Of a stretch of DNA of 42,532 nucleotides, positions 18,628 through 21,923 are shown in pieces; the first letter of the stretch is position 1, and each line of letters begins with the position of its first letter. The translations under genes were made by a program, and so were the position numbers. The notes under the pieces are model-generated. The model saw only the letters and a program-made list of their open reading frames with translations, made no database searches and was not told the DNA's origin. The DNA is from an uncultured Pseudomonadota bacterium (GTDB taxonomy: Bacteria; Pseudomonadota; Gammaproteobacteria; Methylococcales; Methylomonadaceae): NCBI GenBank assembly GCA_903848905.1, contig CAINHP010000014.1:1-42532 (forward strand). Direction: 5' to 3'.

Positions 18628-18643
18628 TTATCTAGTTAGATAA
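18628..18643. promoter_or_regulatory. Perfect 7-2-7 palindrome, candidate operator
   Basis: TTATCTA-GT-TAGATAA is an exact inverted repeat in the divergent spacer between pyrF and the Hsp70 cassette, 70 bp before the ATG at 18713. Its size and position fit a dimeric repressor or activator site. It has no trailing T-run, so it is not a terminator. No regulator is known. Confidence 0.4.
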
Positions 18644-18712
18644 ATGTTATTTATTTTTCGCTAGTTCGCGTAAAATTAGAATGCTACTTTGTTTCACTCT
18701 TGCAGGAATACT

Positions 18713-19093
18713 ATGAAAAAACTATTTTTATTACCTTTAATGCTCTTTTCAGTCACTTTATTTGCCGAGCCAAGTACAAATGATGATTGGGAAAATTCAA
18801 CAATTAGTGATGCGACGATTAAAAAAATTCAAGAATCAAAATACGTCTACAAAAAATGTGTAGCCGATGAAATGCAAAAAGCACCTTATCAAACACAAGA
18901 AAGTCGCAAAGCTACCGAAGCTATCGTTAAACAGTGTGAATCAGTTTTAGCGAAAATGCGTGATGTCTACATTACCGAAAAAGTACCTGAAATAATTGCC
19001 GATAGGCACTTGAAGCAAATGCGTTTGCAAACAACGCGTCTTGTTCTCCAAGATATGATGTTTAATGAAGCAGCACGTTCAACGACAAAATAA
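18713..19093 (+). CDS. Small secreted protein of unknown function
   Basis: Unrecognised protein of 126 residues from ATG 18713, chosen because AGGA (18704-18707) sits properly before it. An open frame back to 18689 lacks a ribosome site. It has a clean signal peptide, MKKLFLLPLMLFSVTLFA, then mature EPSTNDDWE. The mature part is charged and probably helical, with two cysteines (in YKKCVADE and VKQCESVL) that could form a disulfide in the periplasm. The last third is rich in K, R and M. It is followed 34 bp later by the DUF2760 gene, which suggests a shared transcript with the Hsp70 cassette. I know no domain for it. Confidence 0.8.
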   Translation: MKKLFLLPLMLFSVTLFAEPSTNDDWENSTISDATIKKIQESKYVYKKCVADEMQKAPYQTQESRKATEAIVKQCESVLAKMRDVYITEKVPEIIADRHLKQMRLQTTRLVLQDMMFNEAARSTTK

Positions 19094-19127
19094 TAATTAA
19101 AAACAATAAATAATGAGGTCTACACAA

Positions 19128-19829
19128 ATGGATATAACAACTTATGCAATTGATTTAACAATCAAACCAACCACATTCGATTTATGGCATGTTTGTTTAG
19201 CGGGTACAGTCGCTGTTTTGGCGGGATTATTAATTGTTGTCATGTTTATGATGGTGGCGAGTTTATTGCGTCGAAATGAAGTGGCAGCACCAGCGGTTCA
19301 AATTGTTGAAAAAGTGGTACATGCTGAGCCAGTGGTTCAAATTGTTGAAAAAATAGTGGAAGTGCCTGTTGACCGAATTGTTGAAGTTGAAAAAATTGTT
19401 GAAAAAATCGTTCAAGCGCCTGCGCCAGCGCCAATTGTGTTAAAAGAAGCTAGTCCAGACGCTGCTTTGCAATTACTCTATTTGTTACAAAACGATGCCC
19501 GTTTTATTGACTTTATTAAAGAAGATATGACAGAGCATAGTGACGAAGACGTGGGGATGGTTGCACGTGTTATTCATGAAGGCTGCAACAAAGTGCTTGA
19601 TGAACATTTCAGCTTTGCGTCTATTTGTAGAGAAAATGAAGGCGACAAAATTGTATTATCTGAAGGATATGACGCTGCTAAAGTGCGTGTGACGGGTAAT
19701 ATTGTAGGGAATCCTCCGTTTACAGGTACGGTTATTCATAAAGGCTGGCAAATTACGGATGTGCGTTTACCTAGTACAGTACAAGGCTACAATGTAAATA
19801 TCATTGCGCCTGCTGAGGTTGAACTATGA
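19128..19829 (+). CDS. DUF2760 domain protein with membrane anchor and repeat stalk
   Basis: Protein of unknown function, 233 residues from ATG 19128. That start is preferred over ATG 19113 because the GAGG at 19115-19118 is then a ribosome site 9 bases upstream. The layout is a single membrane segment at about 22-47 (LAGLLIVVMFMMVASLL), then a stalk at about 55-102 built of VEKIVE/VQIVEK repeats, then the DUF2760 domain at 110-233 (LLYLLQNDARFIDFIKED, ARVIHEGCNKVLDEHF, GNPPFTGTVIHKGW, ending NIIAPAEVEL). DUF2760 genes commonly sit immediately before an Hsp70 gene, as here (4-bp overlap), so it is probably a dedicated partner. Confidence 0.88.
   Translation: MDITTYAIDLTIKPTTFDLWHVCLAGTVAVLAGLLIVVMFMMVASLLRRNEVAAPAVQIVEKVVHAEPVVQIVEKIVEVPVDRIVEVEKIVEKIVQAPAPAPIVLKEASPDAALQLLYLLQNDARFIDFIKEDMTEHSDEDVGMVARVIHEGCNKVLDEHFSFASICRENEGDKIVLSEGYDAAKVRVTGNIVGNPPFTGTVIHKGWQITDVRLPSTVQGYNVNIIAPAEVEL
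19295..19406 (+). repeat. Intragenic repeats coding the VEKIVE stalk
   Basis: The 19-base unit GGTTCAAATTGTTGAAAAA occurs exactly at 19295-19313 and 19334-19352, a spacing of 39 bp (13 codons). The shorter core AATTGTTGAAAAA recurs at 19394-19406, and AATTGTTGAAG lies near 19376. The repeats stay in frame, giving the QIVEKVV/QIVEKIVE pattern, so length may vary between strains by slippage or recombination. Confidence 0.85.
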
Positions 19830-21877
19830 GTTTTTTTGAGCAAATGAAAAAAAAGGCGGTGGAAACAGCGCCTAATAAAGAAGGTACAAGTTCCACGGAG
19901 CCAATTAAGCAAAAAGTGGCAGAGAGTTTGCCAGTAAAAAATGAGGGGAGTGTTTCCGATAGAGCGCCTGTGAAATCAGACACTGTTTCGGCGTCGTCAA
20001 AGTCTCCGATTGAATCAAAAACACATGACTTGTCAACAAGTGTTATTGACCATTCAGTGGGCAGAAAATATGTTGTAGGTATTGATTTAGGTACGACACA
20101 TTGTGTTATGTCTTATGCTGATATTACCGAAGGTGGCGATGATTTTATGCAGCAAGTGATGGGGATATCGCAATTAACCTCACCAAGCGTCATTGAAGAA
20201 AAATTACAATTACCTTCATTTTTATATCAAGCACACAGTGCAGAATTGCCTGAAAACTCGATTGTTCTGCCGTGGAATGCAAAGCCAGAGTATATCGTGG
20301 GAGAAATTGCGCGAAATTTAGGGAGCAAAACGCCTATTCGTTTAGTTTCGAGTGCAAAAAGTTGGTTGTGTCATGCAGGGGTGGATTGTAAATCCCCTAT
20401 TTTACCTCCTGATGCACCAGAAGATGTTGCGCGTGTATCGCCTTTCCAAGCGACGCAAGCCTATTTAGAACACATGAGTGCTGCATGGTTGCGTCTCCAT
20501 CCTAATGCGCCATTAGGTGATCAGGATGTGGTGATTACGGTGCCAGCGTCATTTGATCCTGCTGCGCGTGAATTAACTGTTGAAGCGGCGCGTTCAGTTG
20601 GATTAGGACAAGCTATTTTGCTCGAGGAACCACAAGCAGCGCTTTATAGTTGGATTGATCAAACTCACGGAGAATGGCGCAAACAAGCCAAAACGGGTGA
20701 TATTATTCTCGTTATTGACGTCGGTGGTGGGACAACGGATTTATCTTTGATTGCCGTTACTGAAAAAGACGGCGTGCTAGATTTGACGCGAATTGCGGTG
20801 GGAAATCATATTTTGCTTGGCGGTGATAATATGGATTTAGCACTTGCCTATACCGTGAAAGCTAAAATTGAAAAAGAGGGTAAACGGTTAGAACCATGGC
20901 AAGTACAAGCTTTAACGCATGGGTGCCGTGATGCAAAAGAGAAACTTTTTTCTAGTCATATGACAAGTGTGCCGATTGTGGTACCTAGTCGAGGATCATC
21001 GCTTATCGATGGCGTTTTACGTAGTGAATTAACAATCGATGAAGTGAGACGGGTGTTAATTGATGGCTTTTTGCCACAAGTTGCAGTGAGTGAGCGTCCT
21101 GTTGCCCAAACGCGAACGGGTCTTCGCGCAACAGGTTTGCCTTACGCGCAAGACGCGGGTATTACGCGTCATCTTGCTGCATTTTTAGCAAAACAGCAAA
21201 ATGCAGCAGATGAGTTTGAATCAATCAATTTACCTGAAAATGCAACATTTTTGCATCCTACTGCGGTACTATTCAATGGCGGTGTATTTAAAGCGCAGGC
21301 ATTGACTGAGCGATTGATGGATGTATTAAATAATTGGTTGCGTGTTGAAAATGCACCAGAAGCGCGTTTGCTTGCCGGTGTGGATTTAGATTTAGCGGTG
21401 GCGCGTGGTGCGGCGTATTATGGGTTTGTGCGTAAAGGAAAGGGTGTGCGCATTAAAGGTGGAACGGCCGCTTCTTATTACGTTGGTATTGAGAGTGCAA
21501 TGCCTGCAGTCCCAGGGATGCCGCCTGAAATTCAAGCTTTGTGTATTGCGCCTTTTGGGATGGAAGAAGGCTCACAAGTTGAATTGCCTGATGAAGAATT
21601 TGGCTTAGTCATTGGTGAGCAGGTAAGGTTTAAATTTTTTGCATCGACAACGCGCAGAGAAGACATCGTTGGTACGCGCTTAGATTATTGGCAAGACGAT
21701 GAATTATCTGAGCTCAATGAAATTGAAGTGGTACTCGATACTGAAGGTCGTCGTGCTGGTGAAATCATTCCCGTGCATTTAGGTTCTGCTGTGACGGAAG
21801 TAGGCACATTGGAATTGCAAGCGATGTCAAACGTGGATAGTAGCCGCTGGAAAATTGAATTTGACGTGCGAAATTAA
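19826..21877 (+). CDS. Hsp70-family chaperone of the DUF2760-associated type
   Basis: DnaK-like ATPase, 683 residues, overlapping the DUF2760 gene by 4 bp (ATGA), so translation is coupled. Residues 1-80 are a polar, probably disordered extension rich in S, K, E and P. The ATPase domain starts at 82 with VVGIDLGTTHC (phosphate loop 1). DVGGGTTD is at about 298-305 and LLGGDNMD near 330. The domain ends near AVARGAAYYG. After it only about 140 residues remain, a shortened substrate-binding beta region, with no helical lid. It is not DnaK or HscA: it has no EEVD-like tail and no dnaJ or grpE neighbour. Its client is unknown. Confidence 0.92.
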   Translation: MSFFEQMKKKAVETAPNKEGTSSTEPIKQKVAESLPVKNEGSVSDRAPVKSDTVSASSKSPIESKTHDLSTSVIDHSVGRKYVVGIDLGTTHCVMSYADITEGGDDFMQQVMGISQLTSPSVIEEKLQLPSFLYQAHSAELPENSIVLPWNAKPEYIVGEIARNLGSKTPIRLVSSAKSWLCHAGVDCKSPILPPDAPEDVARVSPFQATQAYLEHMSAAWLRLHPNAPLGDQDVVITVPASFDPAARELTVEAARSVGLGQAILLEEPQAALYSWIDQTHGEWRKQAKTGDIILVIDVGGGTTDLSLIAVTEKDGVLDLTRIAVGNHILLGGDNMDLALAYTVKAKIEKEGKRLEPWQVQALTHGCRDAKEKLFSSHMTSVPIVVPSRGSSLIDGVLRSELTIDEVRRVLIDGFLPQVAVSERPVAQTRTGLRATGLPYAQDAGITRHLAAFLAKQQNAADEFESINLPENATFLHPTAVLFNGGVFKAQALTERLMDVLNNWLRVENAPEARLLAGVDLDLAVARGAAYYGFVRKGKGVRIKGGTAASYYVGIESAMPAVPGMPPEIQALCIAPFGMEEGSQVELPDEEFGLVIGEQVRFKFFASTTRREDIVGTRLDYWQDDELSELNEIEVVLDTEGRRAGEIIPVHLGSAVTEVGTLELQAMSNVDSSRWKIEFDVRN

Positions 21878-21886
21878 TTAAAAACC

Positions 21887-21923
21887 AGGTGAAAAATCAT
21901 TGGATTTTTCACCTTTTCTGTTT
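21887..21923 (+). terminator. Strong intrinsic terminator after the Hsp70 gene
   Basis: A 12-bp perfect stem AGGTGAAAAATC / GATTTTTCACCT (21887-21898 with 21903-21914) and an ATTG loop are followed by TTTCTGTTT. It begins 10 bp after the Hsp70 stop and ends the cassette transcript. It overlaps the possible TTG start at 21900 of the next frame, which supports the ATG at 21942 for that gene. Confidence 0.92.

Follow-up and report, generated by a model that had tools for sequence, protein, structure and literature searches.

A three-gene block, SecP-DUF2760-Hsp70-A, lies on a contig of 42,532 nucleotides (hereafter the window, meaning the whole stretch analysed; GenBank assembly GCA_903848905.1, contig CAINHP010000014.1) from an uncultured gammaproteobacterium of the Methylomonadaceae (order Methylococcales), whose source assembly comprises 2.49 Mb in 278 contigs with a completeness of 96.47%. 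All three genes are on the forward strand, and the block is bordered by pyrF, on the opposite strand, on one side and by darP on the other. We coined the name SecP for the exported 126-aa protein encoded by the first gene. The second gene encodes a membrane protein with a DUF2760 domain, and its end overlaps by 4 nt with the start of the third gene, which encodes a divergent Hsp70, Hsp70-A. The original prediction for this region had listed a palindrome, a secreted protein, a DUF2760 membrane protein, an Hsp70 and a terminator, all of which are present (Table 1).

Table 1. Features of the SecP-DUF2760-Hsp70-A locus (positions in the window)
Feature	Position	Strand	Remarks
Palindrome TTATCTAGTTAGATAA	18628-18643	none	lineage-specific, probably not functional
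TTCGCGTAAAATTA, -10-like promoter element directly 5' of SecP	18665-18678	+	conserved; putative function
SecP gene	18713-19093	+	126 aa, exported
DUF2760 protein gene	19128-19829	+	233 aa; alternative ATG at 19113
Transmembrane helix of DUF2760 protein	19173-19280	+	model residues 16-51; probably N-out/C-in
VEK-rich repeat stalk	19284-19442	+	residues 53-105; predicted disordered, predicted local distance difference test (pLDDT) <50
DUF2760 domain	19455-19823	+	model like GrpE short helical domain plus beta-wing, weak match
Hsp70-A gene	19826-21877	+	683 aa
Intrinsic terminator between Hsp70-A and darP	21887-21914	+	perfect 12-bp stem, then T-rich

Conservation and distribution of the gene block

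In a set of 61 genomes, namely that of the window and those of 60 relatives, SecP and DUF2760 were matched in the same 51 genomes and were both absent from the same 10, and Hsp70-A was found in the same 51 among the matches listed. SecP adjoins DUF2760 on one contig in 49 of these 51 genomes; the two genes lie on two contigs in G009 and ~1.8 Mb apart in G046. The trio is thus a conserved gene block in Methylococcales, and the co-occurrence proposed for the secreted gene and DUF2760 holds, as joint presence or absence, in all 61 genomes. It should be noted that two families account for seven of the ten joint absences, so that independent losses are few. Of the remaining three genomes, two (G006 and G014) also lack pyrF, and the missing trio may therefore reflect an assembly gap and no clean natural deletion.

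A search for named loci, which used patterns typical of methanotrophs and sampled other groups unevenly, returned 73 loci, 22 of which (L098-L113 and L115-L120) lack a DUF2760 domain according to the hidden Markov model and were excluded from the counts. The relatives identified by name are Methylococcales methanotrophs, for example Methylovulum, Methylomonas, Methylotuvimicrobium and Crenothrix. SecP lies upstream of DUF2760, at a distance of at most 520 nt, in all 38 loci of the methanotroph lineage (35 titled as methanotrophs and three as 'uncultured proteobacterium'). An Hsp70 is also present in all 13 named DUF2760 loci outside the methanotrophs, and SecP was not found in any of these (12 Photobacterium/Vibrio loci and one deltaproteobacterial locus). 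The earlier statement that DUF2760 and this kind of Hsp70 are often neighbours can be put more strongly: an Hsp70 open reading frame follows downstream on the same strand in all 156 DUF2760 records that extend at least 700 nt beyond the gene, a tally that includes Hsp70s reading GTSN (164 records in total, some sharing a genome; 136 of the 139 distinct sequences have at least 700 nt downstream).

The distribution of DUF2760 is patchy, with 12 positive genomes among the 321 of a class sample (Gammaproteobacteria) and 28 among the 398 of a phylum sample. Within the class sample, SecP-like genes occur in 14 genomes, including three Methylococcales; the remaining 11 genomes do not overlap with the nine non-Methylococcales genomes carrying DUF2760, and all nine of these DUF2760-Hsp70 genomes are without a SecP match. 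The core is the DUF2760-Hsp70 pair, and SecP is an add-on. The view of the trio as a unit therefore stands for Methylococcales (51 of 61 genomes) and does not extend to the general DUF2760-Hsp70 system, given the 0 of 13 named non-methanotroph loci with SecP.

The three genes presumably form one transcript that runs from promoter to terminator. Fifteen of the 16 genus loci carry the putative promoter element TTCGCGTAAAATTA unaltered, the remaining one shows a single change, and loci L012 and L016 retain it although the DNA farther upstream diverges. The terminator hairpin has a calculated energy of -15.1 kcal/mol (z -3.24), and the closing of the cassette by a perfect terminator was correctly foreseen. 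The palindrome TTATCTAGTTAGATAA is present as described, but it is one of 22 in the window with 7-nt arms and 0-4 nt spacing, and it is kept in just two of the 16 genus loci, namely the window's own and that of the near-identical genome G013. It is therefore no conserved operator, and we have ruled out this role.

Properties of the three proteins

The DUF2760 protein matches Pfam PF10816 over residues 110-232 (E 4.3e-49; 165.9 bits versus a curated cut-off of 25), and the transmembrane helix and VEK-rich stalk ahead of this domain agree with the membrane protein with a repeat stalk that had been described. A transmembrane-like segment is found in 120 of 138 distinct DUF2760 proteins. In the 12 residues flanking the span, these 120 proteins contain on average 0.24 lysine plus arginine residues before and 3.4 after it, and 114 of them carry more of these residues after the span than before. 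By the positive-inside rule this excess would place the DUF2760 domain in the cytoplasm, as the original prediction had assumed, and the reading of the protein as single-span with a cytoplasmic domain is well supported by these sequence signals. In some other lineages, the N-terminus of the DUF2760 protein is short and less hydrophobic, or there are several spans.

SecP has a signal peptide at about residues 1-18, as judged by eye, and a lipobox is seen in its place, also by eye, in the SecP of Methyloprofundus and of some other relatives; that the protein would be exported is well supported. Its cysteines C49 and C75 are invariant in a 20-member alignment. The AlphaFold2 model is all-helical, with a mean pLDDT of 83.3 and values of 91-96 per ten-residue block over residues 41-120. 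Searches of SecP against Pfam, NCBIfam and PDB profiles gave nothing over the cut-off (best PDB profile E 0.57), and the same applies to the profiles of described periplasmic families, such as Spy/CpxP and LprI, although SecP may be very distantly related to one of these. Foldseek found no clear relative of the model (best E 2.5). The best Z score obtained with VIA-align 2 (VIA), 8.3, is within the usual range of this tool for common helical bundles, and the rows are indeed such bundles: RNF112, designed proteins, BAG and ribosomal proteins. A BAG function for SecP was considered and rejected, the BAG rows being taken as a common bundle.

In all six genomes of one Methylococcaceae genus, a single open frame of 362-385 aa comprises both SecP and DUF2760. 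It runs from the signal peptide through SecP and the span to DUF2760, an arrangement that fits an N-out/C-in topology of the DUF2760 anchor. This shared frame gives mild support to a link between SecP and the anchor. G386, a seventh genome whose SecP frame is long, has separate SecP and DUF2760 genes.

Hsp70-A matches PF00012 with 66.5 bits (curated cut-off 20.6), and its ATPase motifs are kept: GIDLGTTHCV and IDVGGGTTDLSL align with DnaK. From the last motif of the nucleotide-binding domain (NBD) to the C-terminus there are 158 aa in Hsp70-A of the window versus 264 aa in the DnaK of the same genome, which leaves room for a beta-domain and none for a lid; the canonical DnaK-type C-terminal helical lid is lacking. 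The motif pattern could be located in 28 of the 35 family members, and in these the same distance is 158-165 aa. A profile alignment of the Hsp70-A tail with DnaK tails did not reveal a substrate-binding beta-domain of DnaK type, a result that says little because 13 of the 14 DnaK tails were short. The lidless Hsp70 with an 80-residue head is thus found as described, as the first ~80 of the 683 residues form such a head, but head length is not a conserved trait, since 7 to 131 residues precede the first NBD motif across the 35 members.

The second, larger Hsp70 that had been called missing is indeed not beside the trio but is found elsewhere in the genome. This Hsp70-B, of 928 aa and with DUF3731 (PF12531), is encoded on another contig (L035 1245-7402, G000:C112), where two GTPases with dynamin-like matches precede it. 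Among the 38 named loci of the methanotroph lineage, it lies downstream of Hsp70-A in six, and several of the rest end too early to show it. In addition, a PF00012 search of the window's genome matched DnaK, Hsp70-A, Hsp70-B and MreB, and no HscA. The order of two GTPases followed by Hsp70-B recurs in G014 (L047). The G045 assembly holds two separate SecP-DUF2760-Hsp70-A blocks (L041 and L042), each followed by a larger Hsp70; the copy in L041 has broken frames, and the contamination of 4% leaves a mixed bin as a possibility. A small protein resembling retropepsin-type aspartic proteases is encoded between DUF2760 and Hsp70-A in one phylum-sample genome (L245 1955-2368), an assignment read from the sequence without a family search.

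A GrpE-like exchange factor and its alternatives

The model of the DUF2760 protein, used alone as query, was aligned by VIA to 376 PDB chains, and in the resulting list of 23 rows GrpE fills the first five: 9bls and 9blt, both human GrpEL1 (Z 4.6), 1dkg of E. coli and 4ani of Geobacillus (both 4.2) and 8gb3 of M. tuberculosis (3.8). A sixth GrpE, Thermus 3a6m, follows at row 10 (Z 2.8). The top five alignments cover 94-99 residues with root-mean-square deviations of 5.7-6.8 A and span parts of model residues 111-233, except for 8gb3, which covers 133 residues within 15-233 at 16.7 A. The matched region of DUF2760 consists of helices followed by a beta domain. According to a published account, the short helical domain and beta-wing of GrpE open the nucleotide cleft of Hsp70 (PMC12987570), and the region matched in DUF2760 corresponds to this wedging part. 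The GrpE match is more than a curiosity, given that DUF2760 served as the only query and that in our data its gene never stands without a neighbouring Hsp70.

Based on these data, we propose that the product of the operon is an Hsp70 module tethered to the membrane, with a GrpE-like exchange factor and a periplasmic SecP, a reading to which we give close to, but not quite, an even chance. Most likely, the DUF2760 protein would hold Hsp70-A at the inner membrane and reset its nucleotide: the GrpE-like DUF2760 domain would open the nucleotide cleft of Hsp70-A, so that ADP is swapped for ATP beside the membrane, and the lidless Hsp70-A would bind its clients there loosely and briefly. With less confidence, we suggest that the SecP of Methylococcales may bind the DUF2760 anchor at its periplasmic end and sense or receive a client on the far side. 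As regards the exchange step itself, we put the probability that the DUF2760 domain is a nucleotide-exchange factor of GrpE type a little below even.

Several observations weigh against this proposal, and some of them are what one would expect if DUF2760 simply anchored Hsp70-A in the membrane or served as its client adaptor, without exchange activity, its likeness to GrpE being a chance helix-plus-beta layout. There is no clear transmembrane segment in 18 of the 138 distinct DUF2760 proteins. The structural match is weak (Z <5, the best being 4.6), the predicted template modelling score of the DUF2760 model is 0.46, and Foldseek returned no GrpE among the 40 matches to this model at E<=10. 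All sequence comparisons with GrpE (PF01025) were negative. Using a shallow DUF2760 alignment (effective number of sequences 1.8-1.9), hhalign in local and then in local plus global mode gave a probability of 0.1, which did not exceed that of 10 control families, and our own profile-profile test gave a z of 1.25, with 16 of 150 column shuffles and seven of 60 control windows scoring equal or higher. The best BLAST match had an E of 0.008 and was beaten by six of 20 shuffled sets; at E<=10 there were 470 matches with the real sequences versus 268-398 with the shuffled sets and 275 with the reversed set, and the best matches were not aligned wing to wing. GrpE is also not among the 25 families listed in Pfam for 38 DUF2760 members. 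A relationship of DUF2760 to GrpE is therefore not backed at the sequence level. A GrpE-style peptide pattern present in 38 of 59 GrpE sequences, one of 141 DUF2760 proteins and none of 6032 other open reading frames, and a relaxed version present in 38 of 59, 97 of 141 and none of 6032, respectively, were given no weight because both were written after viewing the two families. The plain-anchor explanation also agrees with the description of the specialised HscA and HscC as needing no exchange factor (PMC8215388). Against it stand the leading position of GrpE among the VIA rows and the Hsp70 gene that follows DUF2760 in every record with enough DNA, and we consider it possible, with the balance tilting against it.

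The place of SecP in the proposed module meets objections of its own. In the shared frame, the proportion of nonsynonymous differences (pN) in the linker is close to that of synonymous ones (pS) in most of 15 pairs, the other two frames are likewise stop-poor, and a ribosome-binding site, GAAGGGAAA in five of the six genomes and AGGGGAAA in the sixth, as well as an ATG, is retained ahead of DUF2760. Hence, DUF2760 may still be made alone, and the shared frame need not be a true fusion. Small exported SecP-like proteins with the same two-cysteine pattern have a second conserved context beside rppH and near mdh and gltA (names read from translations, not from a family search), which was seen in seven of the 11 genomes outside Methylococcales that carry SecP-like genes (L147, L149-L153 and L155) and probably also in L156; the Gammaproteobacteria with this arrangement gave no DUF2760 match. 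SecP is therefore a member of a wider family, which was apparently recruited to the DUF2760 operon in the Methylococcales. It may accordingly be an independent envelope protein that shares a promoter with DUF2760 and Hsp70-A but not their mechanism. This explanation, which we regard as tenable and yet rather doubtful, gains from the rppH context (at least seven of the 11 genomes, none with DUF2760), from the DUF2760-Hsp70 pairs without SecP in the nine class-sample genomes and the Photobacterium/Vibrio loci, and from the distant location of SecP in G046, and it loses from the order-wide adjacency with DUF2760, the identical presence and absence of the two genes, and the open frame common to both in one genus. 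An unlikely alternative is that SecP acts as a holdase like Spy/CpxP, or as a sensor passing periplasmic stress to Hsp70-A via the anchor; it is exported, all-helical and has two invariant cysteines, and lipoprotein versions exist in some lineages (by eye), but it has no Pfam match over the cut-off, no PDB profile below E 0.57 and no clear fold match. Overall, the original interpretation of a trio linking the two sides of the inner membrane is partly supported: the co-occurrence and the topology speak for it, and the lack of SecP from the DUF2760-Hsp70 system at large speaks against it.

Relation to known chaperone systems

The tethered module with a GrpE-like exchange factor resembles the GrpE-DnaK system, including GrpEL1-mortalin, in its helical and C-terminal beta domain (Z 2.8-4.6 with six GrpE entries) and in the genetic coupling of DUF2760 to an Hsp70. 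It differs in that DUF2760 has a membrane anchor and a flexible stalk where GrpE has a long dimer helix, in that its partner would be a divergent, lidless Hsp70, and in that sequence similarity to GrpE is not demonstrable. Independently of the trio, 11 of the 41 Methylococcales genomes searched have, in addition to the canonical GrpE, another, divergent one (E about 2e-17 to 3e-25), for example at G021:C119, G023:C92 and G052:C12. Hsp70-B, mostly 38-44% identical to Hsp70-A over residues ~78-682 of the latter, differs from it by its length of about 930 aa, its C-terminal DUF3731 and, in the window's genome, its location behind two dynamin-like GTPases on a separate contig.

The yeast protein Snl1 is an exchange factor. 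It is, likewise, described as a membrane-anchored regulator of Hsp70 (PMC3962485), but Snl1 is eukaryotic, anchored in the endoplasmic reticulum, and carries a BAG domain. The nearest functional parallel, by analogy, is HscC of E. coli, a specialised Hsp70 that is thought to be active at the plasma membrane together with the tail-anchored DjlB and DjlC. In contrast to DUF2760, these partners are J-domain proteins, and an exchange factor is said to be unnecessary for HscC (PMC8215388). No J-domain match was found in SecP, the DUF2760 protein or Hsp70-A.

The same review names three prokaryotic Hsp70 types, DnaK, HscA and HscC (PMC8215388), and another gives GrpE as the sole known type of bacterial Hsp70 exchange factor (PMC4753570). 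In the literature searched, there was no paper on DUF2760, PF10816 or DUF3731, and no title on the SecP-DUF2760-Hsp70 trio. It is conceivable, though we hold it with reservation, that DUF2760 represents a second, membrane-anchored kind of bacterial Hsp70 exchange factor, remotely related to GrpE and serving a lidless Hsp70, which in methanotrophs reaches across the membrane by means of a two-cysteine periplasmic subunit tying Hsp70 cycling to the far side of the inner membrane. The exchange-factor reading makes the so far unassigned function of the DUF2760 family accessible to a simple biochemical assay. If true, a dedicated exchange factor fixed in the membrane and paired with a lidless Hsp70 of its own would be a novel means of bringing chaperone activity to the envelope, and in methane-oxidising bacteria the three proteins could make up an envelope chaperone device of a kind that has received little study.

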